Shown: in pieces, positions 8,983 through 34,611 of the stretch
Numbering within the stretch: position 1 is the first letter of the stretch
Layout of the letters: every line of letters begins with the position of its first letter
Origin: Candidatus Methylomirabilis oxygeniifera
GTDB lineage: Bacteria; Methylomirabilota; Methylomirabilia; Methylomirabilales; Methylomirabilaceae
Reading direction: 5' to 3'
DNA: 35,505 nt
Assembly (NCBI GenBank): GCA_016190255.1
Contig: JACPQX010000018.1
Coordinates: 1-35,505, forward strand
Notes under the pieces: generated by a model
What the model was told of the DNA's origin: nothing
The model's input: the letters and a program-made list of their open reading frames with translations, nothing else
Databases searched by the model: none
Made by a program: the position numbers and the translations under genes

Positions 8983-8999
8983 CTTACCGGAGGTCAGCG

Positions 9000-9227
9000 A
9001 TGAAAACCATAGCAGCCGGGAAGTTCAAAGCACAGTGTTTGGCTCTGTTGGACGAGGTCGCTCGCGAGCATGAAACGATCCTGGTGACCAAACGGGGGAA
9101 GCCGGTCGCAAAGGTCGTCGCGGTGACCGAACGGAAGGCTGACCTCCGTCAACAACTGAGGGGAAGCATCCTGCGTGAAAAGGACATTATTAACCCAGTG
9201 CCGTTCACATGGGAAGCCGTCTCATGA
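9000..9227 (+). CDS. Phd/YefM-family antitoxin
   Basis: MKTIAAGKFKAQCLALLDEVAREHETILVTKRGKPVAKVVAV is a typical Phd/YefM N-terminus; overlaps a PIN toxin. Confidence 0.88.
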   Translation: MKTIAAGKFKAQCLALLDEVAREHETILVTKRGKPVAKVVAVTERKADLRQQLRGSILREKDIINPVPFTWEAVS

Positions 9228-9610: not shown

Positions 9611-9752
9611 GCGCTAGGGCAGCGAGTTTTTTCGCTTGACGGGAAAGAAGAAATGAAGGTAGTAAGAGACCAGGCAGCCAACTGGCTGCTACATTGTCCA
9701 GGGGATAGGTCGGTGCGCGGTTGGGCCGCCGTATCTCACCGAAGGTAGCCTC

Positions 9753-13064: not shown

Positions 13065-13081
13065 GGTGGTGAGACGCAGAT

Positions 13082-14083
13082 ATGCGCAACCACCAGCCGC
13101 CATCCTCGAAGCCGCCTCGAATCCTCATTGTGGATGACATCCCGCAGAATGTCGATCTGGTGAGCTCCCTGATGCGGGCCGAGGGGTATGAGGTCGCCTC
13201 GGCCGCCGACGGGCTGGAGGCCCTGGCGCGGGTTGCCTCCGCTCCACCGGACCTGATCCTCCTGGACATCATGATGCCGACGCTGGATGGCTATGCGGTC
13301 TGCCGCCAGCTCAAGGCGCGCCCCGAGACCCGCTTGGTGCCAATCGTCCTGATCACCGCGTTGGGGGATGAAGCCGACAAGCTCATGGGGATCGAGGCAG
13401 GGGCGGATGACTTCCTCACCAAGCCGTTCAGCCAGGCGGAGCTGAAGGCTCGCGTCCGCTCTCTGCTCAAGCTCAAGACCTTCACCGACGAGCTGGAGCA
13501 CGCCGAGGCCATGTTGTTGACGCTTGGCCGGACAGTGGAGGCGAAAGACCCGTACACGCAGGGGCATTGTGATCGGCTCTCGGCCTACTCGGTCGCCCTT
13601 GGACGCGCGCTCGGCCTGGCGCCTGAAGAGTTGACAGCCCTCGAGCGCGGGGGGGCCCTCCACGATGTAGGGAAGATCGGAATCCCGGATGCCATCCTTC
13701 TCAAACCCTCCGGGCTCACGGCGGCGGAGTGGGCGGTCATGCGCGAGCACCCGGAGATCGGCGAGCGGATCTGCCTGCCGTTGCGGTCGCTGAGACGAGT
13801 CCTGCCGATTATCCGCCATCACCACGAACGGTGGGACGGCAGCGGGTACCCCGACGGTCTCGCAGGCGAGGCGATTCCCCTCACGGCCCGAATCCTCCAG
13901 GTTGTGGACATCTTCGACGCGCTCACGACAGAGCGCCCGTATAAGCCTGCCCTGTCACAGGCCGCCGCGCTCGCCGCCCTGCAGGATGAGGTCGCTCGCG
14001 GCTGGCGGGATCCAAAAGTGGTCGAGGCGTTCATCGAGCTGGCGGAACGTAGAGAGCTTCCTCCGGTCCCGCACGCGCTATAG
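13082..14083 (+). CDS. Response regulator with HD-GYP domain (putative c-di-GMP phosphodiesterase)
   Basis: [33 protein letters not shown], then [76 protein letters not shown]. Confidence 0.95.
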
Positions 14084-14139
14084 GTCATAGGCGAGATCGT
14101 CGTGGCCCGTACCATCGGCCGGCCGATGGGGTTGACACG

Positions 14140-17100: not shown

Positions 17101-18549
17101 GTGATGGGCGTGATCATCCTTAATGACATCCGCCGAACCGGCCGCTTTGACAGGGTTCGCATCCAGCGGTCAGAGATCTTCGCACATCAGGCGGCTACTG
17201 CCCTCGAGAACGCCCGGCTGTACTCCGCGCTTGGCGATTCGAAGCGGCGGCTCGAGCAACTGTATAGCCTTAGCCTGACCATGCAGGAGCACCGAACGCT
17301 GCAGACCGGTCTCGACCTCATCCTGAAAGGGGCGCGGACGGTTCTTGGCTTCGAGCGGATGAACATCCTCCTCGCGAACCCCGAAGGGACGCGACTGACT
17401 GGCGTGGCGAGCTTAGGCGTGGAGGAGCCCCTTGACCGGATCCACGTCCCACTGGGACCGGAAGGAGGGGGGATCGCGAAGGCGTTCTTGGAGCGGAGGG
17501 ATATCGTCTGGGAGGGCCAAGGACCGGTGCCAAACGAGTTGCGCCTGGCCCACCCCTACTCGGAGATCAAAGCCTTCCGCTCGCGAAGCTTCGCGATCGT
17601 GCCCCTCATCGTCAGGGGGGTGGCGATCGGGGTCTTGGGCGCTGATAACAAGTTCAGCCAAAAGCCGATCCCATCGGAAACGATTTACCTTCTGAAGACC
17701 TTCGCCGCCCAGGCCGCCATCACCATCGACAATGTTCGTCTTGACGAACAGGTCACAGAGTACGCGAAGGATCTGGAGGAGAAGGTGGAGAACCGGACCA
17801 GGACGTTGAAAGAGGTGCAGATGCAGCTCATCCAGTCGGGGAAACTGGCTGCCGTGGGGACCCTGGCCGCAGGGGTCGCCCACGAGCTGAACCAGCCCCT
17901 GATGGTCATCCGGGGATATGCCCAGGAGCTGCTGGGAGATGAGCGGATCGCCGACGAGGAGATCCGAGAAGACCTGCGCCGGATTGCGGCTCAGACGACG
18001 CGAATGTCGGCCATCATCAGCCACCTCCGGGACTTCTCCCGACAGTCGAAGGGGAAGCGACAAGTGATCGATTTGAACCAAGTTGTGACACAGGCCTTGA
18101 CCTTCCTCGAACAACAGTTGAAGACCCGTAACGTTGAAGTGGTCCGGCAGCTCCATCCCGGCCTTCCTTGGGTTTGGGCCGATCCACTGCAGATCGAGCA
18201 GGTCCTGCTGAACCTTGTCACGAACGCGCGAGACGCCATGGAGAAAGCCGGGAGGGGGACCATCATCGTCCGCACCGAGACAATCCAAGACGCCGGGGTG
18301 GCCCTCAGCGTCACCGACACCGGCCCTGGGATTCCCCCGGACCTTCGGGCGCGGATCTTCGATCCGTTTTTTACCACGAAGGAGGTTGGCAAAGGGACCG
18401 GCCTGGGGCTGAGCATCTGTCACGGGATCGCGGAGGAGCACGGGGGGGAACTCCGAGTGGAAAGCCCGGTGGCCGACGAGCGGGGCGCCCGCTTCACGCT
18501 GGTGCTGCCGCGCTCCCTTCGGGACTCCAGTGAGAGTGATCGGGCATGA
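14140..18549 (+). CDS. Large sensor histidine kinase 3: CHASE-like extracellular domain, PAS, multiple GAF, HisKA, HATPase
   Basis: N-terminal TM, CHASE-like [42 protein letters not shown]-type [33 protein letters not shown]; repeated [17 protein letters not shown] ends; [65 protein letters not shown]. Confidence 0.92.
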
Positions 18550-18935
18550 AAATCGTGCGAATCTTGCTGGTCGATGACGAGGAGGAGGTCCTCCGCCTCC
18601 TACAGCGACGGCTCACGCGCCGGGGCTACGCGGTCACCACTGCGACCGATGGCAGCCAGGCCCTCGCGTCGCTCCAGCACGGGGCGTTTGACGTCGCCAT
18701 CCTGGACTTCATGATGCCGGGCATGAACGGCCTCGAGCTGGCGGGTCAATGCCGCGCCAGGGACCCGGGCTTGAGAATCCTCATGCTGACCGGGTCGCCG
18801 GTCATCGGGGAGATCGAAGCGGAAGGGTATCTCTGCCTGCGCAAACCGCTCGAAAACCTGGAGGAGCTGGACCAAGCAATCGAGCGCCTCCTGGCCCCGG
18901 AGAGCGAAGGACACCCGGAAGGAAGGGAGAGATGA
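18546..18935 (+). CDS. Single-domain response regulator (REC)
   Basis: [57 protein letters not shown] overlap with kinase 3. Confidence 0.9.
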
Positions 18936-19309
18936 GCGGGCGTCGCATCTTGGTAGTGGATGACGACAGGGATGTGGTCGTGTTTCTGAGTAGGCTTCTC
19001 CAGAGGGCCGGCTACACGGTCGTCACCGCCGGGGACCCCTCCCAGGCGGTGGCGCAGACCCACCAGGAGAAGCCGGACCTCATCCTGACCGACGTCACGA
19101 TGCCGGCTGGCGGCGGCTTCACCGTTCTGGACCATCTGAAGACGTCTACGACGACCGGCCCCATCCCCATCATCGTCCTCACCGGCAACGACGACGCCGA
19201 GGTCGAGGCCCGCGCCCTGGCCGCGGGGGCGGTCCACGTCCTGCGAAAGCCGTGCGACAATGCCGTCCTGCTGGAATGCATCAGGACGGCGTTCCGCGAG
19301 GGGACGTGA
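18932..19309 (+). CDS. Single-domain response regulator (REC)
   Basis: [66 protein letters not shown] overlap with previous gene. Confidence 0.9.
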   Translation: MSGRRILVVDDDRDVVVFLSRLLQRAGYTVVTAGDPSQAVAQTHQEKPDLILTDVTMPAGGGFTVLDHLKTSTTTGPIPIIVLTGNDDAEVEARALAAGAVHVLRKPCDNAVLLECIRTAFREGT

Positions 19310-19989
19310 GCGCGCAAGAGCGCATTCTTGTCGTCGATGACGATCCGGAGGTCCGGACCTTACTCTCGCGGCGCCTCCGACGCGCGGGGTACGTTGTCGA
19401 GGAAGCAGGCGATGGGATGGACGCCCTGGGACTGGTGGACAAGGCAGTTCCTGATGTCGTGGTGACCGATATGGCGATGCCGCGCCCCGACGGCCTGGGG
19501 CTCCTGAAAGAGCTTCGAAGCAGAGATCCCGAGCTTCCGGTCATCGTCCTGACCGGGCACGGGTCATTGGATAATGTCATCCTGGCGATGCGGGACGGAA
19601 GCCTGTTCGACTATCTGCTGAAGCCATTGCCCGACCTCGACCTGTTGGACGTGGCAGTCCGGCGCGCGCTCGAGGTCCGGCAACTCCGCGCTCGTGCTCG
19701 AGAGGCTGATCAGGTTGTCGCCATGCGAGAGCTGGCCGCGACCGCGAGCGACCGGATCCTGAATCCTCTGAGCGCCATCATGCTTAGCCTGGTCACCCTC
19801 CGCCAGGAGGGGATTGCGCCGCAGGCCAGGGCCACGGCCGCGGCCAGGGTCGAGCAGGCGATCGACATCATCACCAGGGTCGTCCGCCAAATGCGCACAG
19901 TGGCCCGGTACACGCCTCGGGAGGTCACCCGTGGACTCCGGGAGATCGATCTCGAGACAGCGACGGCTGAAGAGCAGGAGACCGATTAG
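19306..19989 (+). CDS. Response regulator (REC) with C-terminal degenerate DHp-like helical region
   Basis: ERILVVDDDPEVRTLL..PDVVVTDMAMPRPDGLGLL..IVLTGHGSLDN..LKPLPDLDLL, then MRELAATASDRILNPLSAIMLSLVTLRQEG resembling an H-box without the His. GTG start overlaps previous stop. Confidence 0.8.
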   Translation: MSAQERILVVDDDPEVRTLLSRRLRRAGYVVEEAGDGMDALGLVDKAVPDVVVTDMAMPRPDGLGLLKELRSRDPELPVIVLTGHGSLDNVILAMRDGSLFDYLLKPLPDLDLLDVAVRRALEVRQLRARAREADQVVAMRELAATASDRILNPLSAIMLSLVTLRQEGIAPQARATAAARVEQAIDIITRVVRQMRTVARYTPREVTRGLREIDLETATAEEQETD

Positions 19990-19994
19990 TAGAG

Positions 19995-22019
19995 ATGACG
20001 CCGGCTGGGGAGAGGTGGGCCGAAGAGCGAGACCGCCTGTATGCTGTCTTCGAGGCGACCTCCGACGGGATTGCCCTGTTTGACCTTGAAGGCAGGCTGT
20101 TGCTGGCCAACCTGGCGTTCCGAAAGTTGTTCGGGGTGATCCCTGAAGGACTGTCCCGAGATGATCCCGCGTGCACGCTCGCATTCCTGAAGTCGAGGGC
20201 TAAAGATACCACGGAGTTTGAACGAGAGTTCCGGAGGCTCCTCCTCCAGCGGGATACACCGGAACGTGATAGGGTCGAACTGGCGCTTCCCCACCCGCGC
20301 TCCCTCCTTCGAGTGCGCACCCCGGTATTGGATGAGCGGGGGAATCTTGTTGGGCACGTCCATACGCTGCGCGATGTGACCAAGGAGCAGGAAGTCGCGC
20401 AGATGAAGTCGGAGTTCGTTTCCAGGGCGTCCCACGAGCTCCGCACCCCCCTCACGTCGATTAAAGGCTCGCTCCAACTCCTGATCGAGGGCGCGAGGAA
20501 TCTGCCGCCCTTCGAACAGGAGCTGCTGAGTGTCTGCCTGAGAAACACCGATCGGCTGATCCATCTTGTGAACGATATCCTGGACCTCTCAAAGATGGAG
20601 GCAGGCAAGCTCAAGCTGAGGCTTTCCGATCAGGTGGTGGCTCATCTGATCGAGCGCGCCGTGGCCGGCATCACGCATCAGGTGGAGGAACGAGGGGTCA
20701 CGATCGAGGTTTATGTGCCCCCGGATCTGCCTCAGGTCCGGGTCGATCGAGATCGTGTCGTTCAGGTGTTGACGAACCTCCTGGACAATGCGATCAAGTT
20801 CTCCGGCCCGGGCGAGCGGGTCAGGGTAGCTGCCCGGGGCCCCCAGCGTCTGGAGCCAGGTACGGGAGGTGTGCCTGGTGTCGTGTCGCCCCTCGCCCCT
20901 CACCGCTCTCACCCGGGCGATTTCCTTGAGATCAGCGTGACCGACCAGGGCCGAGGCATCGCGCCGCACGATATCGACAAGTTATTCTTGTCGTTTCAGA
21001 AGCTGGATGGCTTGACAGCAAGCGACACCCCGGGGACCGGACTGGGGTTGGCCATCTGCAAGGGGATCGTCGAACAGCATGGCGGAAGGATCTGGGCAAG
21101 CTCGGAGGGTCTTGGCCACGGCACCACCCTCACCTTCCTCCTCCCCGTTCTCGGGCCGCCGCGGCCCCGTATCATGGTGGCCGATGACGAACCCAGATTC
21201 GTCCGACTCCTGACCAATATCCTCGAACCGGAGGAATTTTCGGTGACCTCGGCTCCCGATGGTGAAAACACGCTGCGGATGGTCGAGCAGGCCGTGCCGG
21301 ATCTGCTGATCCTGGATCTGCGCCTTCCTGGATTGGATGGATGGGGGGTGTTGAAGGCTCTGCGCGCGAGGATCTCTACGCGCCACCTGCCGATTCTGGT
21401 CGTGACCGCTCTGGGCGCCGAGGACGCAGAGAAGACGCTTGCGCTTGGAGCAGACGAGTACCTGAGCAAACCGATCTCCCCTTCCGTCCTGATTGATACC
21501 GTTCATCGCCTCATTGGTGACGTGGAACGCCGGCGGCGAGAGCCGACCGAGGCGTTCGCGGACGCCGGCGCGGGGCCGATCTCGGAAGCGGACACGGGAC
21601 GGCCGCGCATCCTGATCGTCGAGGACAATCGGGTGAATCTGGAACTGATGGTTGAGCTGCTCTCGCCCCATGGGTTCGAGGTCCATTCGTGCGGTGATGG
21701 GAGGGAGGTCATGCGGCTGGCTAAGGCGAATCACCCCAACCTGATTCTGCTTGACATCAACCTGCCGAACATCGATGGCTTGACGCTGGCCCGGATGCTT
21801 CGCGAAGATCCGGAGACTCAGACTATCGCGATCCTGGCAATCAGCGCCTACTCCATGGTCGGCGACAAAGAGCGGATGGTCGAGGCGGGGTGCGATGGGT
21901 TCATCCCCAAACCGATCGACACTGGGACCTTCTTGGCAACGGTCTCGACCTTCCTCGATCGCGGGAGAACCCCAGGGGTTCCTCGTGGCGAGGCTGGCCG
22001 CAGGTTGCCTGAATCGTAG
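19995..22019 (+). CDS. Hybrid sensor histidine kinase 4: PAS, HisKA, HATPase, REC, REC
   Basis: MKSEFVSRASHELRTPLTSIKGSLQLLIEG; LTNLLDNAIKFSGPGE; VTDQGRGIAPHDIDKLFLSFQ; GTGLGLAICKGIVEQHGG; PDLLILDLRLPGLDGW and NLILLDINLPNIDGL. Confidence 0.92.
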   Translation: MTPAGERWAEERDRLYAVFEATSDGIALFDLEGRLLLANLAFRKLFGVIPEGLSRDDPACTLAFLKSRAKDTTEFEREFRRLLLQRDTPERDRVELALPHPRSLLRVRTPVLDERGNLVGHVHTLRDVTKEQEVAQMKSEFVSRASHELRTPLTSIKGSLQLLIEGARNLPPFEQELLSVCLRNTDRLIHLVNDILDLSKMEAGKLKLRLSDQVVAHLIERAVAGITHQVEERGVTIEVYVPPDLPQVRVDRDRVVQVLTNLLDNAIKFSGPGERVRVAARGPQRLEPGTGGVPGVVSPLAPHRSHPGDFLEISVTDQGRGIAPHDIDKLFLSFQKLDGLTASDTPGTGLGLAICKGIVEQHGGRIWASSEGLGHGTTLTFLLPVLGPPRPRIMVADDEPRFVRLLTNILEPEEFSVTSAPDGENTLRMVEQAVPDLLILDLRLPGLDGWGVLKALRARISTRHLPILVVTALGAEDAEKTLALGADEYLSKPISPSVLIDTVHRLIGDVERRRREPTEAFADAGAGPISEADTGRPRILIVEDNRVNLELMVELLSPHGFEVHSCGDGREVMRLAKANHPNLILLDINLPNIDGLTLARMLREDPETQTIAILAISAYSMVGDKERMVEAGCDGFIPKPIDTGTFLATVSTFLDRGRTPGVPRGEAGRRLPES

Positions 22020-22076: not shown

Positions 22077-22811
22077 GTGGAGGAGGGGCCGGCGTTGACA
22101 AGAGGCAGGGACGGGACAGGGATCGATGGATTGGACGCCTTAATCGAGGGAGGGTTTCAGGAGCGGAAGGCCTATCTCATCTGTGGGGAGCCGGGGACCG
22201 GGAAGACCACCTTCTGCCTTCAGTTCCTGTTGAAGGGGCTGGGACAGGGCGAGCCAGGGGTCTATGTCACGATCGACGAAAAACCCTCGCACCTGATCGA
22301 GGATGCCCAGTCGATGGGGTGGGACCTGGCGCCGCACCTCGACCGGAAGGAACTCCTCATTCTCGATGCTTCGCCGTACTTCACGAACCTTCGCCTCGGG
22401 AAGGAGCGGGAGCTTGACGTGCGGCAGATCGTGTCCGACCTGGGCAAGCATATGAAGTCTCTGGGCGCGCGTCGCCTGGTCATCGATCCCGTCGCCCCGC
22501 TGATCTTCAAGGAAGAGGGCCAGGCGGTGGTGATGGAGTACATTCGGAGCCTCATCTTTTCGATCGAAGACAACCTCGGCTGCACCGCGCTCTTCACCTC
22601 CCATATGGTCACCGGGAGCGAGCGCCTGAGCCGGTTCGGGGTGGAGGAATTCATCGTGTCTGGCATCGTGTTGCTCCGGATCGTTCGAGCGCAGAACCGG
22701 TATATCAGGACCCTGTTTGTTCGAAAGATGCGCGGGACCGCCCTCGATCTGACGGAGTACAGCTTTGACATCGTTCGGGGCCGAGGCATCGTCCTTCGTC
22801 AAGCCGTCTAA
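22077..22811 (+). CDS. KaiC-like RecA-superfamily ATPase
   Basis: TGIDGLDALIEGGFQERKAYLICGEPGTGKTTFCLQFLLKGLGQGEPGVYVTIDEKPSHLIEDAQSMGWDL; ARRLVIDPVAPLI; VRKMRGTALDLTEYSFDI. GTG start; exact start uncertain. Confidence 0.85.
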   Translation: MEEGPALTRGRDGTGIDGLDALIEGGFQERKAYLICGEPGTGKTTFCLQFLLKGLGQGEPGVYVTIDEKPSHLIEDAQSMGWDLAPHLDRKELLILDASPYFTNLRLGKERELDVRQIVSDLGKHMKSLGARRLVIDPVAPLIFKEEGQAVVMEYIRSLIFSIEDNLGCTALFTSHMVTGSERLSRFGVEEFIVSGIVLLRIVRAQNRYIRTLFVRKMRGTALDLTEYSFDIVRGRGIVLRQAV

Positions 22812-22841
22812 GAGGGGTTCGTATCGCGTCGAGGACACCTT

Positions 22842-23945
22842 ATGGAACCCGTGAAGATCCTGATCGCCGACGATGAGCCCGATATTGCCCTGATCCTGAA
22901 GACGACCCTGATGAGGAACGGGTATACGGTCGTGGTGGCAGTGGACGGAGAGGAGGCGTTGGAGAAGGCAAGGGCCGAACGCCCCGGTCTCCTGCTTCTC
23001 GACCTGATGATGCCGAAGAAGGATGGGTATCAGGTATGCCGGACGCTGCGCGAGGATCCCCAGTTCAGCCTGTTGCCGATCGTGATGCTCACGGCGAAGG
23101 GGGAAGCGGCGGATCGCTTGCTGGGCTTCGAGGTGGGCGCCGACGATTACATCATTAAGCCGTTCGACCGGGATGAGTTGGTTGCGCGGGTTCGGGCGAT
23201 CCTTCGCCGCCGGCCCCAGCAGCAAGCCGTCCAGCCTGTCGAAACGGCGGAAGGCCTGGTCCCGACCGGCCTGCCATCGCTTGATCGGGTGTTGGAAGGA
23301 GGGGTGCCGAAGGGCACCAATCTCCTGGTGCTCGGCCTCATAGGAAGCGGCAAGTCAAGCTTCGGCCGAAGGTTCGTGGCGGCCGGCCTGGCGTCGGGAG
23401 AGCCCTGCCTGTGCATCTCGGTCGATGACAATCCATCGGTCGTCCGCCAGGGGCTCGACGAGGCCGCCGCGGGGGCGCTCTCCACCTGCGAGCGCGCCGG
23501 GCTGTTCAGGCTGGTGGATGCTTACTCGTGGTGTGCCGGCGGCGCGGGAACGGCCGAACGGTTCGCCGTCACCGGCATCCTGGAGCTCACGCAGCTTTCC
23601 GGCGTGGTTTCGGACGCGGCGGGGGAGCTCGGCCAGACCATACAGGACAAGCGTGGCGGGCGGCGGGTCATCGATTCGATATCGAGCCTCTTGGTGAATT
23701 TCGAGCTCTCTTCAGTGCAGCGTTTCGTGGCCCATCTTGCTCGCTCCGCCGTGGCGTGTGGTGGCGTCAGCTCCCTGTTCATCGTGGAGGGGGGGGCCGT
23801 CAGCGATCAGGCCTTGAACAACATCCGGTATGTGGTGGATGGCGTCCTTGAGTTCAGGCGAGAGGAGACGCGTCACTATGTTCGGGTAGCGAGCATGAAG
23901 TGGCGGCGGGCCTCTCCGAGCTGGACCGAAATCACCCTGACCTAG
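22842..23945 (+). CDS. REC domain fused to KaiC-like ATPase domain
   Basis: KILIADDEPDIALILKTTL..PGLLLLDLMMPKKDGYQVCR..IIKPFDRDELVARVRAIL then GLPSLDRVLEGGVPKGTNLLVLGLIGSGKSSFGRRFVAAGLASGEPCLCISVDDNPS..RRVIDSISSLL. Confidence 0.88.
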   Translation: MEPVKILIADDEPDIALILKTTLMRNGYTVVVAVDGEEALEKARAERPGLLLLDLMMPKKDGYQVCRTLREDPQFSLLPIVMLTAKGEAADRLLGFEVGADDYIIKPFDRDELVARVRAILRRRPQQQAVQPVETAEGLVPTGLPSLDRVLEGGVPKGTNLLVLGLIGSGKSSFGRRFVAAGLASGEPCLCISVDDNPSVVRQGLDEAAAGALSTCERAGLFRLVDAYSWCAGGAGTAERFAVTGILELTQLSGVVSDAAGELGQTIQDKRGGRRVIDSISSLLVNFELSSVQRFVAHLARSAVACGGVSSLFIVEGGAVSDQALNNIRYVVDGVLEFRREETRHYVRVASMKWRRASPSWTEITLT

Positions 23946-23987: not shown

Positions 23988-24091
23988 GTCATTGCGAGCG
24001 ACCAAATAAGCCGAAGCCCTGAGTGAAGCGAAGGGGTGGCAATCTCGCCGCTTTTGGGATTGCTTCAGTCACTTCGTTCCTTCGCAATGAC
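23988..24091. repeat. Palindromic dispersed-type repeat, termini GTCATTGCGA ... TCGCAATGAC
   Basis: gtcattgcgagcgacc...ggcaatctcgcc..gggattgcttcagtcacttcgttccttcgcaatgac; inverted ends read directly; resembles a palindromic intergenic repeat type common in many bacterial genomes. Confidence 0.85.
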
Positions 24092-24155: not shown

Positions 24156-25532
24156 ATGCAGGCGATCGTGCTTGCAGGGGGCATGGGAACGAGACTTCGG
24201 CCGCTTACCTACACGCGACCGAAGCCGATGGTGCTTGTGGCGAATCAACCGGCGCTCGACCATATCGTGGCTGCCGCCGCGCAGGCTGGCTTCTCCGAGG
24301 TAATCGTCACGACCAACTATATGGCCGAAACCATTCAGGCGTATTGTGCGGCCGACCCATTCCAGATCCCCGTCCGTTGCGTCAAGGAGGACCGTCCGAT
24401 GGGCACGGCCGGAGCCGTCAAGAACGTTGAATCGCAAATCACGGGGCCCTTCGGCGTGATTCAGGGCGACAGCCTCTCGGAGATCGACCTGACCGCACTG
24501 ATGGCCTCCCACCGCCGGCTCGGCGGGACCGCCACGATCGCCGTAATGCCTGTGGAGAATCCGTCCGAGTTCGGGATCGTCGAGCTGAATGGCGACGGGA
24601 GGATCGTGCGGTTTCTGGAGAAACCGAAGCCCCAGGAGTGTTTCAGCAATCTGGCCAATACCGGGTTCTATATCCTCGAGCCCGAGATCCTCGGCTTGAT
24701 CCCTCCCGATATCAGCTACGATTTTTCATTCGAGCTGTTTCCAAGACTTCTCGCATCGGGCCGGCCGATCTTTGGTTGGCAGACCCGGGCCTATTGGATC
24801 GATCTTGGCCGGATTTCCAGCTATCTGGCGGGTAACGTCCATTGCCTTGCTCGTGAAGAAAGCGCGATTGTCGCATCGCGGACGTCCGTCAGTCCGAGCG
24901 CCGTTCTTCATCCTCCCGTCCTGGTGGGGGACGGAGTGGTTGTCGAGGAGGGGTGCGAGGTCGGTCCATTTTCGGTGATCGGCAATGGTGTTCGGCTGGG
25001 GGCCGGATCCAGGGTGCGACGCTCTGTCCTCTATGACCGGGCCGCGGTGGCCGCAAGGGCCGTCCTTGAGGAGTGCGTGATCGCCGACGAGACGAGGGTG
25101 GGTCGGGATGTCTCGATCGAGAGACTGGCGGTGCTCGGGAGAGGATGCGCCGTGGGGGACGGGGCGAGGATCAAGGAGGGCTCGCGGATCGGTCCTTTTG
25201 TCGTTGTGGAGCCGCACAGCGTCGTGGAGGGCGTGCTGTCGCCGGACCTTGATCGAATCGAGCGAAGCCAGGCGTTGCTGACGGGCCATCCTGCGTTCGC
25301 CGGCCTGGTTCCGGAAGAGCTGGCGATCTGCATGACCCTTTCCGAGGTGGGTGAAGCGCCCGCGAAGACGCTCGCCAGCATCGCGAAGATCCCTTTTTCT
25401 CGAATCCACTCCGTGCTCTACGCATTGGAACAGCGTCGGTTGGTGGTCGCCAGGGGGGAGTCGCCGAAATTGTTCTCGCTCCTCTACGAGAATCCGGATC
25501 GGATCGCCTTGCGGGCGGCCCAACACCGATAG
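24156..25532 (+). CDS. Sugar-1-phosphate nucleotidyltransferase (mannose-1-P guanylyltransferase-like) with left-handed beta-helix and C-terminal winged-helix-like domain
   Basis: MQAIVLAGGMGTRLRPLTYTRPKPMVLVANQPALDHIV, GTAGAVKNVE, VIQGDSL, EKPKPQECFSNLANTGFYILEPEIL, YWIDLGRISSYLAGN; hexapeptide-type repeats; tail LVPEELAICMTLSEVGEAPAKTLASIAKIPFSRIHSVLYALEQRRLV. Confidence 0.88.
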   Translation: MQAIVLAGGMGTRLRPLTYTRPKPMVLVANQPALDHIVAAAAQAGFSEVIVTTNYMAETIQAYCAADPFQIPVRCVKEDRPMGTAGAVKNVESQITGPFGVIQGDSLSEIDLTALMASHRRLGGTATIAVMPVENPSEFGIVELNGDGRIVRFLEKPKPQECFSNLANTGFYILEPEILGLIPPDISYDFSFELFPRLLASGRPIFGWQTRAYWIDLGRISSYLAGNVHCLAREESAIVASRTSVSPSAVLHPPVLVGDGVVVEEGCEVGPFSVIGNGVRLGAGSRVRRSVLYDRAAVAARAVLEECVIADETRVGRDVSIERLAVLGRGCAVGDGARIKEGSRIGPFVVVEPHSVVEGVLSPDLDRIERSQALLTGHPAFAGLVPEELAICMTLSEVGEAPAKTLASIAKIPFSRIHSVLYALEQRRLVVARGESPKLFSLLYENPDRIALRAAQHR

Positions 25533-25545
25533 GAGGCGCCGAGCG

Positions 25546-26247
25546 ATGCAGACGATCGATCGCGTTCCGACAGGAATTCCAGGATTGGACGGCCTGATAG
25601 AGGGCGGGTTCCCGCGGGGGCGGATCACCCTTGTGACGGGTTCGGCCGGCGCAGGCAAGACCACCTTTGGCATCCAGTTTCTCTGGTCGGGAGCGGTCCA
25701 GCATGGCGAACCCGGGGCCTTTATCACGCTGGAAGAAGAGGCCCTCGACCTCCAGCAGGAGATGGGACGCTATGGATGGGATCTGAAGCGCCTGGAGGAG
25801 GAGCAGAGATTCTGCATCATCCAATCGCCCGTGCCGTTCGAGGTCGCCGGCGTGTCCGTGTCGATGGACGATCTCCTCGACGCGATCCACTCGAAGGCCG
25901 TTGCCATCGACGCAAAGCGCATTGTGTTCGATTCCGTGGCGGCCCTGGGCCTGCCGTACAGCGACCCGGTCCGCTTGCGGAGGGATCTCCATCGTCTGTG
26001 CGCGATGCTGCGGGAGCTGGGATGCACCGCGCTCCTCCTGACAGAGCGTCCCGAGGAGGAGAACCGGATTACGCGCTACGATATCGAGCAGTTCGTTGCC
26101 CAGGGTGTCATCGTGCTGCACCTCAGCCGAAAATACCGCGGGATCGAGATCAGGAAGATGCGTGGGACGAAGCACGATACCAACGTTCACACCGTCAGGA
26201 TCACCGATAAGGGGATTGTGGTGAACCCCGGGGAACACCCTTTTTGA
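25546..26247 (+). CDS. KaiC-like RecA-superfamily ATPase
   Basis: RBS aggagg; TGIPGLDGLIEGGFPRGRITLVTGSAGAGKTTFGIQFLWSGAVQHGEPGAFITLEEEALDLQQEMGRYGWDL; RIVFDSVAAL; IEIRKMRGTKHDTNVHTVRITDKGIVV. Confidence 0.9.
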   Translation: MQTIDRVPTGIPGLDGLIEGGFPRGRITLVTGSAGAGKTTFGIQFLWSGAVQHGEPGAFITLEEEALDLQQEMGRYGWDLKRLEEEQRFCIIQSPVPFEVAGVSVSMDDLLDAIHSKAVAIDAKRIVFDSVAALGLPYSDPVRLRRDLHRLCAMLRELGCTALLLTERPEEENRITRYDIEQFVAQGVIVLHLSRKYRGIEIRKMRGTKHDTNVHTVRITDKGIVVNPGEHPF

Positions 26248-26264
26248 GCGTCGAGCGAGAAGTC

Positions 26265-28415
26265 ATGCAGAACCTGGGCGCCGCCATTATCGGGAACGGG
26301 AGGATGATTGCCACCCTGAATGCGAGGGGACATGTGCAGAGTCTGAGCTTCCCGAACCTCGACTACGCCCAGAACATCGGCGAGACACGCTATGGTCTCT
26401 ACTATGGTCTCCCGGATCAGGGATGGCTCTCATGGGATGATGACGAGGGATGGACCGCAAGCCAGCAGTACATTGCCGGGACCAATCTTGTCGCCACCGA
26501 CCTTCGGCACGAGATCACACGCGTCCGGCTCTCCCGGGAGAGCTACGTGCTGCCGACGGAGGCGATCCTGGTCCAGCGGAGCCGGATCGTCAACGAAGGC
26601 GAGTGGGAGCTCCGGGGACGGCTCTTCTTCTACGGTCAACTGAATGTGGGTGAGTTCCAGGGCAAGAACACCGTGCTCTACGACGAAACAGCCGATGCCA
26701 TCGTCCAGTGGAAGCGGGAATACTGGTTTGCGGTCGGCGCAGATCGGCCTGCGACTGAGTTCCAGTGCGGCAAGATCGATGACCCGGTCGATGCGAAGCT
26801 CGACTGCCGGGACGGGCGGCTGATGGGTTATGCGAACCTCTTCGGTCACGTGAACTTCGCGCTCGGCTGGGAACTGACCGGGATCCCGCCCGGCGGCGAC
26901 ATCGTGGTCGCCGTGTTCCTGTGCGGTGGGTTGTTGCAGGAGGAGGCCCTGGAGCGCCTGCAGTACGCCAGGAAGATGGGCGAAACGGAGCTTCGGCACA
27001 AGACGGTGAATTACTGGCAGGGTTGGCTGAGCGAGGGGCGGCGGCCACCGGTCGGCGATGAGCTGGGGGCCCTGCATGATCGGTCCGAACTGGCGCTGGC
27101 TCTGCTGCACGATCGATCCCATGGCTCGTTTATCGCCGGCCCGCTTGATTACGACTACGCCTACTGCTGGCCCCGAGATGCATCAGAGGTCTGTTTGGCT
27201 CTGCTGCATTCTGGGCGCCGCGAGCCGGTCCGGCAGTTCCTGGAGTTCTGCCGCCGGGTGCAGTCGAGGGACGGTTCCTGGTTTCATCGCTATTGGGCGA
27301 ACGGCGACAGGGCGCCATCGTGGTGCGCACTGCAAAAGACCGACCAATACGACCAGACGGCCAGCGTCGTCTGGATCCATCACGTGTACGGGGTGACTCT
27401 TCCCGCCGGGGAGCGGAGCGGCTTCTGGGAGGGGGTCTGGCCGGTCGTCAGGAGGGGCGCGAACTTCCTGTACGACAGGATCGACGGAGAGACCGGGCTC
27501 CACCTCCCCTGCACCGATCTCTGGGAGGAGCGGGTTGGTCAGTTCGCCTATACCTCGGCCGCCTTCTTCGCCGGCCTCAAGGCGGCGTCCGCCATCGCAA
27601 CCGAGTTGGGAGAAACGAAGGCTGCCGGCCGTTGGGATGAGCAGGCCGAGCGGCTCCGTCGAGCGGTTCGCGGGCTCTTGTTCGGCGCGCATGGCTACTT
27701 TTGTAGAGCGCTCGGCGACTCGACGCCGGACGCGTCCTCGCTCGCGGTGATCGACCCGTTTGAGCTGCTGGATGTGGCCGATCCGGCACAGCGCGAGGAG
27801 GGGCGAAGCGCGATCCGGAATATCGCCGATCACCTCGGAAGGCCGGATCCGAAACATCCGGGTCGTGGCCTGGTGAGGTATCCGGGCGACCAGTACCGGG
27901 GACAAGAGAATCGGTGGATCATCTGCACGCTCTGGGTGGCACGCGCGGCGCTTCGACTCGCCGAAGGGTTCATCGGGTCGTTGGCCCTTGACGAAGCCTC
28001 GGCGCTCCTTGGGGAGGCCAAGGCCTGCCTTGACTGGTGCCGGGCCCACGCGAACCCCGCGGGGTTGCTGCCGGAACAGGTCTATGGCGGCGACGGTGAG
28101 CCGGCCTGGGTCGTCCCGCTTGGATGGAGTCTGTCATCCCTCATCTACACGTGTCACCGTGTGCAGGCGGTCGAGGCTCGATACCAGGAGGCAAGAGAGC
28201 TGGGTCCGGTCGTGGGGTACCGGGACCAGCTCTCGCCGGAGGAGTATGCCGTACTAGTTCTGCTGCGCCGGGGAGGGCCGATGCCGGGGGCGGAGATCAG
28301 CCGGCAGGCCTCCTTTCCGTTTTCCCAAGTCTTTCCCCTGCTCCATCGGCTGGTCGAGAAAGGGTTGATCGAGGGGGCATCAGGAGGGCAGAAACTCTAC
28401 CGATCAAAGGTCTGA
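26265..28415 (+). CDS. GH15 family glycoside hydrolase (glucoamylase-like) with C-terminal winged-helix-like domain
   Basis: GPLDYDYAYCWPRDASEVCLALL, QKTDQYDQTASVVW, LHLPCTDLWEERVGQFAYTSAAFFAGL, GLLPEQVYGGDGEPAWVVPLGWSLS; tail LSPEEYAVLVLLRRGGPMPGAEISRQASFPFSQVFPLLHRLVEKGLI. ATG 26265; alternative TTG 26244. Confidence 0.88.
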   Translation: MQNLGAAIIGNGRMIATLNARGHVQSLSFPNLDYAQNIGETRYGLYYGLPDQGWLSWDDDEGWTASQQYIAGTNLVATDLRHEITRVRLSRESYVLPTEAILVQRSRIVNEGEWELRGRLFFYGQLNVGEFQGKNTVLYDETADAIVQWKREYWFAVGADRPATEFQCGKIDDPVDAKLDCRDGRLMGYANLFGHVNFALGWELTGIPPGGDIVVAVFLCGGLLQEEALERLQYARKMGETELRHKTVNYWQGWLSEGRRPPVGDELGALHDRSELALALLHDRSHGSFIAGPLDYDYAYCWPRDASEVCLALLHSGRREPVRQFLEFCRRVQSRDGSWFHRYWANGDRAPSWCALQKTDQYDQTASVVWIHHVYGVTLPAGERSGFWEGVWPVVRRGANFLYDRIDGETGLHLPCTDLWEERVGQFAYTSAAFFAGLKAASAIATELGETKAAGRWDEQAERLRRAVRGLLFGAHGYFCRALGDSTPDASSLAVIDPFELLDVADPAQREEGRSAIRNIADHLGRPDPKHPGRGLVRYPGDQYRGQENRWIICTLWVARAALRLAEGFIGSLALDEASALLGEAKACLDWCRAHANPAGLLPEQVYGGDGEPAWVVPLGWSLSSLIYTCHRVQAVEARYQEARELGPVVGYRDQLSPEEYAVLVLLRRGGPMPGAEISRQASFPFSQVFPLLHRLVEKGLIEGASGGQKLYRSKV

Positions 28416-28425
28416 GGCTGCACAG

Positions 28426-30111
28426 ATGGCCGGTCTGTTCCGATCCTTTGATCCATCCGCTGATCAAGATATCCGAGCCCCGGGCCGCGACCCGCGGGCG
28501 GCACTCTGGGTGACCTGCCCGCTCGTCATCCTTGCCCTGCTCTGTATCTATCTGCTCTTTCGGACGCTGGCCTTTTTCGATCCGTCGTACCGGCCGATCG
28601 ACCGTGTGGCCTCCGTGCTTCTGTTCGGGTCCGAGCTCTTCAACTTCGCCCACGCTATTGGGTACCTGCTTGGCACCGTCAAGGCGAGACGAAGCTATAG
28701 GGTTCCCCAGGAGCATATGCTGGCGGCTTTTGTAGAGCCTCCCGTGGCGGTTCTCATCGCGTCGTTCAATGAGCCGAGGGAGGTCCTGGAGGATACAGTG
28801 GTCGCGGCCTCCGGCATGGATTATTCTCGAAAGGCCCTCTACTTGGTCGACGACTCGACCAAGGAGGAGGCCCGGCAGGGGGCAGAGGAGCTCGCCGCGC
28901 GATACGGGGCCAGGCTGGTTCGCCGCGCGGAGCGGCGCGGATATAAGGCCGGGGCCATCAATGACATCCTCCCGCATCTGCAGGAACCCTACATGGCCGT
29001 CTTCGATGCCGACGCCAGACCCGTGTCAACCTTCCTGCGCGATCTAATCCCGCTTATCGACCGTGATCCTGCCCTCGGGTTCGTCCAGACCCCGCAATTC
29101 TATGAGGGAACCGAATCGCTTCCGGTCGCCTCTGTCGCAGCCACTCAACAGGCGGTCTTCTTCGAGTACATCTGTGAGGGGAAGGGCATATCAGAGGCGA
29201 TGTTCTTCTGCGGAACCAATGGGATCTTCCGGCGCGAGGCGCTGCTCTCGATCGGGCGACGGGTCGGTGGCCGCATCGAGTATTTCGATGAGTCGTCCGT
29301 GACGGAAGACTTCGCGACATCGCTGACCCTGCATCAAAGGGGTTGGCGGTCGTTGTATTACAACCGGGTGTACGTGTACGGCATGGGACCGGAGACGCTA
29401 ACCGCTTATTTCACCCAGCAGATGCGTTGGGCCATGGGCAACCTCGGGATCTTCCCGCGGCTGCTCGTGGACATGCTCCGTCGCCCGCGATCACTGAGGC
29501 TTGGCCAGTGGTGGGAGTACCTGCTCTCTTGCACCTATTATTTCGTTGGGTGGGCGAACTTCGTCTTTATCATCATGCCGATCCTCTTCCTCTTATGTGG
29601 CGTGCGCCCCCTGATCGCCGATCCTGTCGCGTACCTCGCCGCGTTCGTCCCGTACTTTGCAACGTCCCTCTCCCTCTTCTATGTCAGCTTGGCGTGGCGG
29701 GGCTATCGAGTCCGAGATCTCTGGTTGGGTCAGGCGCTGGGGTTCGCGACCTTTTGGATCTACATGAAGGCGGCAGCGGCGGCGATGCTGGGACGCAAGC
29801 GGGCGTTCGGCGTCACGCCCAAAGGGGTCGGCGGGAGGCTGCCGCTTCGGGCGCTTTGGCCCCAAGCTACGATCATGGTGCTGAGCTATGCGGCAGGGGT
29901 CTGGGGGGCGCTGCGCTTCCTCTACCTCGACCCCGCCATGACCCTGCTGATCAACGTTCTCTGGGCGTGGTATCACGTCGCGCTCCTCGTTCCCCTGTTC
30001 TGTTACTTCAACCGCCCCGTGGAGATCGAGGGGCGAACGAGCCTGTTCGATCGATACCTTCTTGAGCAGGCCGCTTCGGGCATGCTCGACTCCCCCGAGA
30101 GAAGGCGGTGA
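28426..30111 (+). CDS. Cellulose-synthase-like family 2 glycosyltransferase, multi-pass membrane protein
   Basis: VAVLIASFNEPREVLEDTVVAA, DDSTKEEAR, VFDADARP, SVTEDFATSLTLHQRGW, QQMRWAMG (QxxRW), N- and C-terminal TM segments; no PilZ domain apparent. Confidence 0.9.
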   Translation: MAGLFRSFDPSADQDIRAPGRDPRAALWVTCPLVILALLCIYLLFRTLAFFDPSYRPIDRVASVLLFGSELFNFAHAIGYLLGTVKARRSYRVPQEHMLAAFVEPPVAVLIASFNEPREVLEDTVVAASGMDYSRKALYLVDDSTKEEARQGAEELAARYGARLVRRAERRGYKAGAINDILPHLQEPYMAVFDADARPVSTFLRDLIPLIDRDPALGFVQTPQFYEGTESLPVASVAATQQAVFFEYICEGKGISEAMFFCGTNGIFRREALLSIGRRVGGRIEYFDESSVTEDFATSLTLHQRGWRSLYYNRVYVYGMGPETLTAYFTQQMRWAMGNLGIFPRLLVDMLRRPRSLRLGQWWEYLLSCTYYFVGWANFVFIIMPILFLLCGVRPLIADPVAYLAAFVPYFATSLSLFYVSLAWRGYRVRDLWLGQALGFATFWIYMKAAAAAMLGRKRAFGVTPKGVGGRLPLRALWPQATIMVLSYAAGVWGALRFLYLDPAMTLLINVLWAWYHVALLVPLFCYFNRPVEIEGRTSLFDRYLLEQAASGMLDSPERRR

Positions 30112-30175
30112 GGTTGGGGGAGAGAGGCGGCCCAGCCGGGGTCCGGTCGCGCAGGCAGGAAACGGGACACTGACC

Positions 30176-31072
30176 ATGCTGCACCGACAGGTACTCGCCG
30201 TCTTGTCCGGCCTCATCGTGCTGACGGGCGGGGAGGTCGGGCTCTTCCTGTGGCTGAACGAGGCCGAGATCGCCGCCAGGCGGGCAGACGCCCTGTTTCG
30301 CAGGCAGGCGTATGCGGCGGCGGTTGAACTGTATCAGCAGGCGCTGCGCCGACACCCGGGCCGCCCCGATCTCTTGCTTCCCCTGGCGAAGGCGCTTGGC
30401 GGAAGCGGGCGTCCGGCGGAGGCCCGGCTGGCAGTGGGGCAGGTCCTGGCGGTGGCCCCAAGAGACGTGCAAGCTCATCAGGTTGCGCTCGAGCTGGCCT
30501 GGCAAGCGAAGGATCGGGCGGGGGTGATCGACGCCGCCACGGCCCTTCTGGCTATCGACCCGAGACATTCGGTTGCCCGGCGCGATCTGGCAAGAGCGCT
30601 CGCGGCCGTGGGTCGCTCTGAAGAGGCCGAGACCGAGTATCGACGCCTTATCGAGGGCGTCCCATCAGAGGTCTCGGCGATGGTTGAGCTTGGGGTCCTC
30701 CTGGAGGCCAGGGGGGACAGGGCGGGCGCCGTGGAGCAGCGCAGGCGAGCGCTCGCGGCCTCCGCCGGGGACCTCGATGTCCAGCTTGGCTTGGCTGACC
30801 TCCTTGCCGCAAGCGGGCGCTTTGCCGAGGCCGCCGATCTCTATCAGCGCCACCTGGCCCGCCGCCCGGGCGATCGGAGCGTCCGGCTTCGGCTGGCCGA
30901 GACGCTGAACGCGTTGAAGGCGTTCGATCGGTCGGCCGCTGAATACCGGGTGGTGTTGGAGCAGTCTCCCGACGATGCCGAGACCCGCGTTAAGCTCGCG
31001 CGCGCCCTGTCGTGGTCCAAGCGGTACGAGGAGTCGATCGAGGAGTACCGGCGGGTTCTCGGGGAGCGATGA
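30176..31072 (+). CDS. TPR protein with N-terminal membrane anchor
   Basis: MLHRQVLAVLSGLIVLTGGEVGLFLWL anchor then repeated TPR units (AYAAAVELYQQALRRHPGRPDLLLPLAKAL, RFAEAADLYQRHLARRPGD). Confidence 0.85.
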   Translation: MLHRQVLAVLSGLIVLTGGEVGLFLWLNEAEIAARRADALFRRQAYAAAVELYQQALRRHPGRPDLLLPLAKALGGSGRPAEARLAVGQVLAVAPRDVQAHQVALELAWQAKDRAGVIDAATALLAIDPRHSVARRDLARALAAVGRSEEAETEYRRLIEGVPSEVSAMVELGVLLEARGDRAGAVEQRRRALAASAGDLDVQLGLADLLAASGRFAEAADLYQRHLARRPGDRSVRLRLAETLNALKAFDRSAAEYRVVLEQSPDDAETRVKLARALSWSKRYEESIEEYRRVLGER

Positions 31073-34000
31073 GACGGCCACCGCGGTGGCTCCGCGCGGG
31101 GTGGGGCGACCGACGAAGCGCAGGCATGTGGACCCTCCGATCCTCAATCCTCTCGGTCACGCTGGTCATTGGGGCCGCCCGCGCGATGGTGCTTCCCGCC
31201 GATGCCGAGGCCGCATCGAGGGTGCGCGAGACGCCGATCTCCCTCTCCCAACGCATCACCGCTGGGGCCAAGGAGCGGGATCCGGCCGGTGAGGCGAAGC
31301 TTCGCTGGGAGCTGGCCCGGGTGTTGCGTGATGCAGGGCGAGGTGATGAGGCGATAGGCGAATACCGGAAGGCGCTGGCCCTCGATAGTCGCATGGAAGA
31401 GGCGCGTCGCGAGCTTGCCCAGCTCCTTCGGTCTCGCGGTCGCCCTGCCGAGGCTGCTCACGAGTTTCTGAGACTCGTTCGCGGCCGGCCGGGCGATGCT
31501 GCGTTACGGCGGGAACTGGCGGAGACCTGGGTGGAGGCAAAACAGGAGGACCGCGCGATCGGCGAGTTCGAACGCCTTGCGGCCGGCCGCCCCTCCGATC
31601 TCACGGTGAGGCGTCGATTGCTGGATCTCTATGCCGGGCGGGGTCGGTGGGCCGACCTGATCGGGACGGCCCGCGCCATCCTGAAGCGCGCGCCGAGCGA
31701 TACCCAGACCCGGTTCCACCTGGCCAACGCGCTCGTTGCCAGCCAGCGTGCGGCGGAGGCGGTGTCGCATCTGAGGCAGGTTATCCGAATGGATCCAGGG
31801 CGACGCGACGCCAAGCGACTTCTCGCTGACGCTCTGAGCTGGCAGGGTGAATATCAAGAGGCGGCCGCGCTGTACAAGGAGCTGCTGGAACCGATCCCAC
31901 GCGACGTTGGGCTTCGCCTGCGTCTTGCCGAGAGCTACCGTTGGTCGGGACGGCTCGATGAGGCGGAGCGCGAGTATCGTGCCGCCCTTCGCGAGGCTCC
32001 CCAGCGGTACGACGCCCGTCTGGGGCTTGGGTTGACGCTTCAAGCGGCTCGCAAGACCGCCGAGGCGAGGGCGCTCCTCGAGTCGATCCTCCGGGAGCGG
32101 CCCGGCGAGCCGGAGGCGCTGGACGCCTTGGCCCACCTCTCGCTCGAACAGGGAAGGCTCGAGGAGGCGGAAGGGCTGCTCGCGCAGCTCGCGCAGCTTC
32201 AGCCAGGACGCGAGGAGCGGCGTCGCCGGCTCGCCCAGGTGCTGGCATTGCAGGGTCGGCTTGAGGAGGCGATCGCCGAGTATCAGCAACTGATTCGTGC
32301 GGACCCGAGCAACGCGGAGGCCCTCGAGGGGTTGGGGGCCGCCAGCGTCGCGTCGCAGATGCCCTATCGCGCGCTGGAGGTTTATCGTCGCGCCGTGGCG
32401 CTTCGGCCCAAGAGACGCGAGGCGCGCCTTGGGGTGGCCCTGGCCCTTGGCGTCGCGGGCGAATACGTGGCGGCACTGCGCGCCTACGCTGCGATCCTCT
32501 CAGAGGATCCCAAGGACGCCAGGGCCTGGTTGGGCACTGCCAAGGTGCTCACGTGGGCGAAGCGGTTTGAGGAGGCCGAATCGTGGTACCTTGGAGCGAT
32601 ACGCGGATTTCCAGGCGATCCGGACGTGCGTCTCGACTACGCCGCGATGCTGCTTGCGGAACGGCGATTCTTCGAAGCGGCCGATATGATCCGGCGTGCT
32701 CCGATGAGCCAGGCGGAGGTCACGAGGGCCACGCTGGTTGAGGCCGATTCGCTCCGCCACCTGGGCCGGGCTGAGGAGGCTCGAGGGCTGCTGACTGGCG
32801 TGGCGGCGCAGAGGCCGAGGGAGCCCCATCTCGTCATTGCGCTCGGTGAATTGGCGCTTCGGCAGGGACAGTTCGGGGCGGCCGAGGAGGAGTTCCGCCG
32901 GGCCCTGTCGCTTCAATCGGACCTTGTTGAGGCCCGCTACGGTCTCTGGAAGGCGGAGGGGAGAGGCAAGGATCCGGATGACGTGGGTTCGCGCTTTGGG
33001 GAGGTACAGAGGGGATCGGGTGGCGCGCGGCGACTGGCGCGACTGGGAGAGCTGCTGGCCGCCGACGGGCGCTTCGCGCAGAGCGCCCGGGCCTGCGCCG
33101 TCGCCGTCGCCCTTGATCCGGATCTTGTGGGAGCCGAGTTTACGCTTGCGGAGGCGGCAGCGGCGCAGGGCGATTTTCAGGCGGCGGCCGATACGTATCT
33201 GCGGCTCTTGGAACGGCATCCCGAGAATATCAAGGGGCGGCTTGGCCTCGCGCGGGTTCTGAGCTGGTCGCAACGGTTTTCGGATGCCGTGGCCGAGTAC
33301 GATCGGATCCTGAGTCGTGACCCGCGCGATCCGCTCGCTCAGCGCGAGCGTGCTCGAGTGCTGGGTTGGGCCCAGCGGCACGCCGAGGCGCGCGAGGGGT
33401 ATGAGCGGCTGCTGCGCGATCCTCCGAAGGGTCCGGAAGAACCGCTGCGACGGCTGATGGAGACGATCCGCCTGGAGCGAGAAGGCAAAGAAGCCCTCTG
33501 GATCGGGCGATACGCAACGGCCGTCGATCTCTACGACCAGCTCCTCCGTCTCGAGCCCGGCAACGAGGAAGGCCGGTTTGATCGGGCCCAGGCGCTGAGC
33601 CACCTCGGGCGGTGGCGGTCCGCCGAGCTGGGCTATCTGGACCTACTGGCGCTTCAGCCCTTTCATCGCCAGGCGGCGATCGCCAGAGAGCGGGCCCGGC
33701 TGGAACAGAGACCGAGAGGACAGATCCAGTACGAGTTCTTTGAGAGTCGGGGTCGCGGGACGCTCGCCGATATCCGGCGTCAGAGGGTCTGGACATCGGC
33801 GGGCATTCCCCTGGCGGCCGAAGGGGCGATGCTGACCGGGGAGTACGCCCACACCTTCTTTCCGACCGGCGACTTCGAGCTGAACGCCTACACCATCCGG
33901 CTGGATGGCCGCCTCGGCCCTCGCCTGACGGGTTTCCTTCGGGCCACCCACAACGACTACCTGGCGCCACTCCGGTCGAAGCAGAACTATGAGGCGGCGC

Positions 34001-34611
34001 TCGACTATCGGCCGCTTGATCGGGCGAGCCTCACGTTCAGGTATCGCCGCGAGGATGTCCAGGAGAATCGTGAATCCCTCGGCCAGCAGATTCAACGCGA
34101 CATCCTGACGCTTCGGGCCGAGACGCCGCTCACCATCAGGAACTCCGTCGGGGCGGCGTACAGCTATGCCCGGTACTCGGATGACAACGACCGGCAGGCC
34201 TTCGAGCTGTTCGGTTCGCACCAGTTCTCCCTCTACCCCAGGGTCCTGAAGCTGACCTACACGCTCAGTTATCAGGACTTCACCCGGGCCACGATCGTCC
34301 CGCCCGACGGCAGCTCGATTCCCACCGTCCACCCGTACTTCGCCCCGTCGAACTTCTTCACCAACGCCCTCACCATCGAATGGCGGCATTACCTCCAGAA
34401 GGAGCTCTTCCTCGGAGCCAACCAGTGCTACTATGACCTCCAGTGGACTCCGGCGGTCGAGTCGATCGATGCCGTGTTCTCCAATACGGTTCGCGGAGAG
34501 GTGCTGTGCGACTTGACTCGGCGATTCACGGTGTCGGTGCAGGGCCTGATCAGTCGATCAACGACCTATGAGGCCGAGCAACTCAGCCTCCAACTCCTGT
34601 ACCGGTTCTGA
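31069..34611 (+). CDS. TPR-rich protein with C-terminal outer-membrane beta-barrel (BcsC/YaiO-like)
   Basis: Many TPR units, then alternating beta-strand pattern from RPRGQIQYEFFESRGRG to terminal LSLQLLYRF with C-terminal Phe; ATGA overlap with previous TPR gene. Confidence 0.85.
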   Translation: MRRPPRWLRAGWGDRRSAGMWTLRSSILSVTLVIGAARAMVLPADAEAASRVRETPISLSQRITAGAKERDPAGEAKLRWELARVLRDAGRGDEAIGEYRKALALDSRMEEARRELAQLLRSRGRPAEAAHEFLRLVRGRPGDAALRRELAETWVEAKQEDRAIGEFERLAAGRPSDLTVRRRLLDLYAGRGRWADLIGTARAILKRAPSDTQTRFHLANALVASQRAAEAVSHLRQVIRMDPGRRDAKRLLADALSWQGEYQEAAALYKELLEPIPRDVGLRLRLAESYRWSGRLDEAEREYRAALREAPQRYDARLGLGLTLQAARKTAEARALLESILRERPGEPEALDALAHLSLEQGRLEEAEGLLAQLAQLQPGREERRRRLAQVLALQGRLEEAIAEYQQLIRADPSNAEALEGLGAASVASQMPYRALEVYRRAVALRPKRREARLGVALALGVAGEYVAALRAYAAILSEDPKDARAWLGTAKVLTWAKRFEEAESWYLGAIRGFPGDPDVRLDYAAMLLAERRFFEAADMIRRAPMSQAEVTRATLVEADSLRHLGRAEEARGLLTGVAAQRPREPHLVIALGELALRQGQFGAAEEEFRRALSLQSDLVEARYGLWKAEGRGKDPDDVGSRFGEVQRGSGGARRLARLGELLAADGRFAQSARACAVAVALDPDLVGAEFTLAEAAAAQGDFQAAADTYLRLLERHPENIKGRLGLARVLSWSQRFSDAVAEYDRILSRDPRDPLAQRERARVLGWAQRHAEAREGYERLLRDPPKGPEEPLRRLMETIRLEREGKEALWIGRYATAVDLYDQLLRLEPGNEEGRFDRAQALSHLGRWRSAELGYLDLLALQPFHRQAAIARERARLEQRPRGQIQYEFFESRGRGTLADIRRQRVWTSAGIPLAAEGAMLTGEYAHTFFPTGDFELNAYTIRLDGRLGPRLTGFLRATHNDYLAPLRSKQNYEAALDYRPLDRASLTFRYRREDVQENRESLGQQIQRDILTLRAETPLTIRNSVGAAYSYARYSDDNDRQAFELFGSHQFSLYPRVLKLTYTLSYQDFTRATIVPPDGSSIPTVHPYFAPSNFFTNALTIEWRHYLQKELFLGANQCYYDLQWTPAVESIDAVFSNTVRGEVLCDLTRRFTVSVQGLISRSTTYEAEQLSLQLLYRF

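Follow-up and report, generated by a model that had tools for sequence, protein, structure and literature searches.

C-terminal TrmB-type winged-helix domains on two sugar enzymes flanking a KaiC-like ATPase

Genes of the locus and their contig

The window, meaning the whole stretch of DNA analysed here, is an entire contig of 35.5 kb from an assembly that is 80% complete. Along its + strand run, in order, the genes for a nucleotidyltransferase with a C-terminal winged-helix (wHTH) tail, a single-domain KaiC-like ATPase, a GH15 enzyme with a wHTH tail, a cellulose-synthase-like family 2 glycosyltransferase (GT2), and two TPR export proteins. Thirteen bases separate the nucleotidyltransferase gene from the KaiC-like gene, which overlaps the GH15 gene by 4 bases if the latter starts at TTG 26244; a further 10 bases lie between the GH15 and GT2 genes. 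This spacing argues that the genes form one operon. The placement of a KaiC-like ATPase between the two enzymes in a sequence-only reading proved real: the gene starts at 25546, encodes a single KaiC domain, and sits within this tightly packed operon.

The first gene (24156..25532, + strand, stop included) encodes a sugar-1-phosphate nucleotidyltransferase of 458 aa from ATG 24156 (PF00483, 9.4e-47; PF25084/Hexapep), in which an NTP_transferase domain is followed by a left-handed beta-helix and the TrmB-type wHTH. Its closest solved structures are a UTP-glucose-1-P uridylyltransferase (8x7s) and a GDP-mannose pyrophosphorylase (7d72). Homologues in Brevibacillus (L083) and in a genome of the same genus (L049) reach about 800–840 residues and run on into phosphoglucomutase/phosphomannomutase domains. 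The window protein stops after the beta-helix, with the wHTH in place of the phosphomutase, and the KaiC-like gene separates it from the GH15 gene. From this comparison, which does not reconstruct the history, the wHTH appears to stand where the relatives' enzyme has its phosphomutase. In Paenibacillus, Brevibacillus and relatives, the fusion gene for nucleotidyltransferase and phosphomutase directly precedes a GH15 gene (L083 7550–11944 and similar Bacillota loci).

The KaiC-like ATPase (25546..26247, + strand, 233 aa) belongs to PF06745 by profile (1.9e-65, 220.9 bits, cut-off 26.6) and bears the Walker A motif GSAGAGKTT. Among solved structures, it is most like the first domain of two-domain KaiC and keeps the Walker A motif and the paired glutamates. 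At positions aligned to the phosphosites of the second KaiC domain, whose phosphorylated residues are S/T, it carries E and Q. No KaiB scored above cut-off in the 80%-complete host assembly. We therefore rejected a circadian-clock KaiC: besides its single domain, the protein has E and Q in place of the phosphorylated residues, and its assembly shows no KaiB above cut-off.

The GH15 glucoamylase-like enzyme (26244..28415, + strand) starts either at TTG 26244, overlapping the KaiC stop, or at ATG 26265. Its PF00723 match (1e-19, 71.2 bits, cut-off 22) and the conserved E428 and E611 in the alignment, the catalytic glutamates of GH15, together assign it to the family, and its 437 bits against the TIGR01577 oligosaccharide amylase model fall below the cut-off of 820.7. 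The AlphaFold2 model of the whole protein (pLDDT 89.6, pTM 0.91) gives the enzyme part a beta-sandwich and an (alpha/alpha)6 barrel, with fold matches in the PDB to a glucoamylase (1lf6) and a glucodextranase (1ug9).

Downstream, the GT2 gene (28426..30111, + strand) matches PF13641 (1.1e-24) and reaches 218.7 bits, below cut-off, for TIGR03030 CelA; no PilZ domain was found in it. Neither this gene nor the KaiC-like gene had a match in 97 other genomes at strict thresholds (1e-60 and 1e-45, respectively). Two overlapping TPR genes follow (30062..34611, + strand), the second of which is long and partly resembles export proteins of the PgaA/BcsC type. Their frames, 30062–31072 and 31012–34611, differ and overlap by about 60 bases, and may represent one frameshifted long export protein. 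The gene set suggests that the product of the operon is an exported polysaccharide.

Is the locus native to its genome? A foreign organism as the source of the contig is unlikely: bioB on it is 90% identical to that of a same-genus genome, and stretches within its first 22 kb can be aligned to contigs of the same genus. The alignment to a second same-genus contig ends at 21964; the KaiC genes, like the polysaccharide cluster, lie beyond this point, and the region holding the operon shows no collinearity with a same-genus relative. The stop at 21964 fits the insertion or replacement of a block. We found neither a donor nor boundaries for the polysaccharide block, and it is for this reason only by inference that the exopolysaccharide-type operon was probably acquired.

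Several further features lie upstream. Large multi-sensor histidine kinases and response regulators stand in a run at 6122–22019, partly collinear with same-genus contigs. They are followed on the + strand, at 22077..23945, by a KaiC-like ATPase (PF06745, 8.2e-66) and then a response-regulator/KaiC fusion (PF00072, 6e-30; PF06745, 2e-22). The fusion, at 22842–23945, joins a receiver domain to a KaiC-like ATPase, here in a bacterium; an archaeal survey recorded KaiC-REC fusions in six Methanosarcinaceae genera only (PMC5847659). A second KaiC-family gene adjoins the fusion, and a third sits between the two enzymes. Directly before the nucleotidyltransferase gene, at 23988–24091, lies a 30-nt imperfect inverted repeat with the ends GTCATTGCGAGC and GCAATGAC, which resembles a dispersed intergenic repeat.

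Identity and relatedness of the two tails

Each tail lies in frame at the C-terminal end of an intact open reading frame. The nucleotidyltransferase tail (25305..25487, + strand) scores 24.4 bits and the GH15 tail (28230..28412, + strand) 26.4 bits against PF01978 (TrmB), each searched alone, with a cut-off of 25.6 that the second passes and the first narrowly misses. Across the host assembly they are the top two matches to this profile, the GH15 tail ranking first, and a search of the assembly with the nucleotidyltransferase tail (E<=10) returned only itself and the GH15 tail. AlphaFold2 gives both the three helices and beta-hairpin wing that define a wHTH fold. The nucleotidyltransferase tail (pLDDT 85.6) is modelled as helix-helix-helix-beta-hairpin, and its PDB fold matches are MarR proteins, Zalpha, AspA and TrmBL2. 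The GH15 tail is carried on the last long helix of the enzyme (residues 627–659) and comprises helices 665–677, 682–689 and 693–705 and strands 709–711 and 718–721; it ends at the wing, and the helix that follows the wing in the model of the nucleotidyltransferase tail is absent from it. Profile and model alike point to TrmB-type wHTH domains in both tails, though the profile score of the first falls just short of the cut-off; the fold comparison made for the first tail agrees. The earlier proposal that two unrelated sugar enzymes share a wHTH-like C-terminal domain is borne out, and the domain is of the TrmB/MarR-like kind it had anticipated.

The same reading had aligned the tails by eye, correctly. 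In BLASTP they match at 32.3 bits without gaps, with 30% identity over 57 residues (E 2e-8, for a single comparison); residues 385–445 of the nucleotidyltransferase frame, counted from 24153, align gaplessly with GH15 residues 663–723. Their BLOSUM62 score is 78, and none of 5000 shuffles scored as well (mean 23.2, maximum 46). Protein identity is 26–30% and the DNA encoding the tails is 43% identical. The closest sequence to the tails met in the analysis is an Asgard-archaeal TrmB-type regulator from Borrarchaeum, with scores of 95 and 92; those of further TrmB-type proteins lie at 50–81. Because the archaeal protein is closer to each tail than they are to each other, and because their DNA is only 43% identical, a recent origin of one tail by duplication of the other is not supported. 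As judged from these sequences, the similarity of the tails is of TrmB-family level, and they are not demonstrably sister copies. An old duplication and two separate captures of the domain fit equally well. A tree of the tails was set aside, as the sequences are too short and support was weak.

Rarity of tailed enzymes

The tail is absent from all 80 GH15 homologues compared, drawn from Bacillota, archaea, Nitrospira and other groups, and a tail-profile search found no tail-bearing enzyme in 95 genomes of the phylum. Strong matches to this profile occurred in the present genome only; nine others were weak (best 1.7e-7), and full reading of three of them revealed an IclR regulator, a TrmB regulator and a helicase-like protein. 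A search of 28 further genomes returned mostly TrmB regulators and no tailed enzyme, and a search of 148 genomes from the phylum to which a Nitrospira MAG belongs brought up three weak matches. No tailed relatives appeared in the first genome scan with GH15 alone, in viral contigs or in plasmids. Within the genus, one of 14 genomes holds a GH15 relative, a distant homologue without the tail. These counts agree with the earlier statement that neither enzyme family normally needs a wHTH, and the search it proposed for other enzymes with this tail found none among the 80 GH15 loci, the 95 phylum genomes and the 28 further genomes. Open-licence papers likewise yielded no report of the enzyme–wHTH fusion.

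Two other loci came to light. In a Thermoplasmata locus a KaiC gene lies two genes from a GH15 gene, on the opposite strand, and was left uncounted. In a Vampirovibrionales MAG (L163 1279–2676), an AAA ATPase has an N-terminal wHTH-like stretch with LPFKIVHPILMDLKNRMLV, like the PFS helix of the tails, as a weak match.

The arrangement is thus real and unusual without being categorically new: it is a one-genome variant of a known theme of enzymes with HTH domains. Since it is known from a single genome, co-occurrence cannot support a partnership of the KaiC-like ATPase with the enzymes.

Possible roles of the tails and known systems

What might the tails do? We weighed four readings, with weights that are a matter of judgement and were not computed. 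The foremost, which we hold tentatively and at somewhat less than an even chance, is that the tails are regulatory wHTHs that bind DNA and feed the state of the enzymes back on transcription of their own operon. On this view, each of two carbohydrate enzymes that work in the cytoplasm and belong to an exopolysaccharide-type operon would have gained a C-terminal TrmB-type winged-helix domain. The tails would bind DNA at or near this operon, and the state of each enzyme, that is, its occupancy by nucleotide-sugar or oligosaccharide, would feed back on transcription as in other HTH-bearing enzymes; the KaiC-like ATPase would regulate the pathway separately, in an ATP-dependent manner. TrmB domains are sugar-responsive transcription regulators. 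The TrmB-type wHTH in both tails, the DNA-binding proteins that head the fold matches of the first tail, the handling of sugars by both host proteins, and the close packing of the genes all favour this feedback. Should the tails bind DNA, a single polysaccharide pathway would have two enzymes reporting directly on the operon that encodes them, a new pair to add to the few enzymes that also act as regulators.

The recognition helix tempers this reading. Each of the nine TrmB-type regulators compared has a tyrosine in the first turn of this helix, a regularity of these nine and no published criterion, and the tails have His in one case and Phe in the other; in the GH15 tail, Gln and Pro also occupy the first turn. 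With the tyrosine replaced, DNA binding cannot be assumed, although the net charge of the helix (+2 and +1) lies inside the range of the nine regulators. Moreover, GH15 glucoamylases are often monomeric, whereas DNA binding by TrmB and MarR proteins mostly involves dimers. That the arrangement is known from one genome also counts against DNA feedback, as does the presence of the same type of tail on two enzymes around one ATPase gene, which would equally suit a shared protein partner. The helix comparison, itself weak evidence, leaves DNA binding by the tails plausible but not assured, and we infer both the binding and its response to substrate.

A shared partner could be the ATPase itself: the tails may dock both enzymes on a ring of the KaiC-like protein, its ATP cycle gating precursor supply and glucan breakdown. 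This is unlikely, yet the tightly packed order of tailed nucleotidyltransferase, KaiC-like gene and tailed GH15 gene speaks for it, as do the deviation of both recognition helices from the TrmB pattern and the nature of the window protein, an ATPase of first-domain type that lacks phosphosites. A role of KaiC-like ATPases as archaeal signalling hubs has been proposed, according to a passage of PMC5847659 that cites the proposal, and BcsE, a regulator of cellulose secretion, has a predicted degenerate RecA-like domain that was overlaid on KaiC (PMC7439463). Set against docking are the single genome known to have the arrangement, the tendency of wHTH domains to bind DNA, the two further KaiC-family genes just upstream, and the fact that KaiC genes often adjoin signalling genes anyway (PMC3164672). 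Still less probable is a full hub, in which the KaiC-like protein would recruit the two sugar enzymes through matching wHTH tails, the winged helix serving as a docking module, and would couple precursor synthesis and glucan breakdown to the ATPase cycle in a polysaccharide secretion operon. Binding of the tails to KaiC would provide a concrete output for bacterial single-domain KaiC-like ATPases, few of whose partners are known.

It is also rather improbable that the tails are relics of a TrmB-like domain captured by gene fusion and drifting without function. Their occurrence in one genome and the loss of the recognition-helix tyrosine from both would suit such relics, but the two separate tails retain a full wHTH core, a confident model and open frames despite their low mutual identity. 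Least likely of all, the tails may pair with each other or with themselves to hold both enzymes in one complex: they are of one domain type, wHTH domains of the MarR/TrmB group commonly dimerise, and a tail-less nucleotidyltransferase–GH15 gene pair exists in Bacillota, which suggests a possible common pathway for both enzymes, but the tails are only 26–30% identical and the post-wing helix of the first is missing from the second.

In regulators of the TrmB family (PF01978) from archaea and bacteria, the wHTH has the sequence and fold seen in the tails but stands at the N-terminus and drives a regulator; in the window it is found at the C-terminus of catalytic enzymes, and the recognition-helix tyrosine is missing. 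The first domain of KaiC has the Walker A motif and paired glutamates in common with the window ATPase, which differs in having no second domain, no phosphosites and no KaiB found above cut-off in its assembly. The Bacillota fusions of Paenibacillus and Brevibacillus share the nucleotidyltransferase and beta-helix core and the GH15 neighbour, but their C-terminal half is a sugar phosphomutase, their GH15 enzyme is tail-less, and no KaiC-like gene lies between. Like the PgaC/PgaA and BcsA/BcsC export systems, the operon places TPR genes after a processive GT2, and the second of these TPR genes is long and PgaA/BcsC-like in part; unlike them, its genes all fall below the family cut-offs, no PilZ domain was found, and a GH15 enzyme replaces the usual hydrolase.

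Comparable with the favoured reading, feedback through DNA binding, are RbkR, BirA, NadR and PutA, in each of which, as in the window, a metabolic enzyme is joined to a domain of DNA-binding type. PMC8305020 lists the archaeal riboflavin kinase RbkR, which has an HTH domain, as a bifunctional gene regulator and enzyme, and BirA is a precedent for an enzyme with an HTH domain (PMC4016012). Those are other enzymes, with the HTH mostly N-terminal, whereas the window holds two different enzymes of one operon, each with a putative DNA-binding tail.
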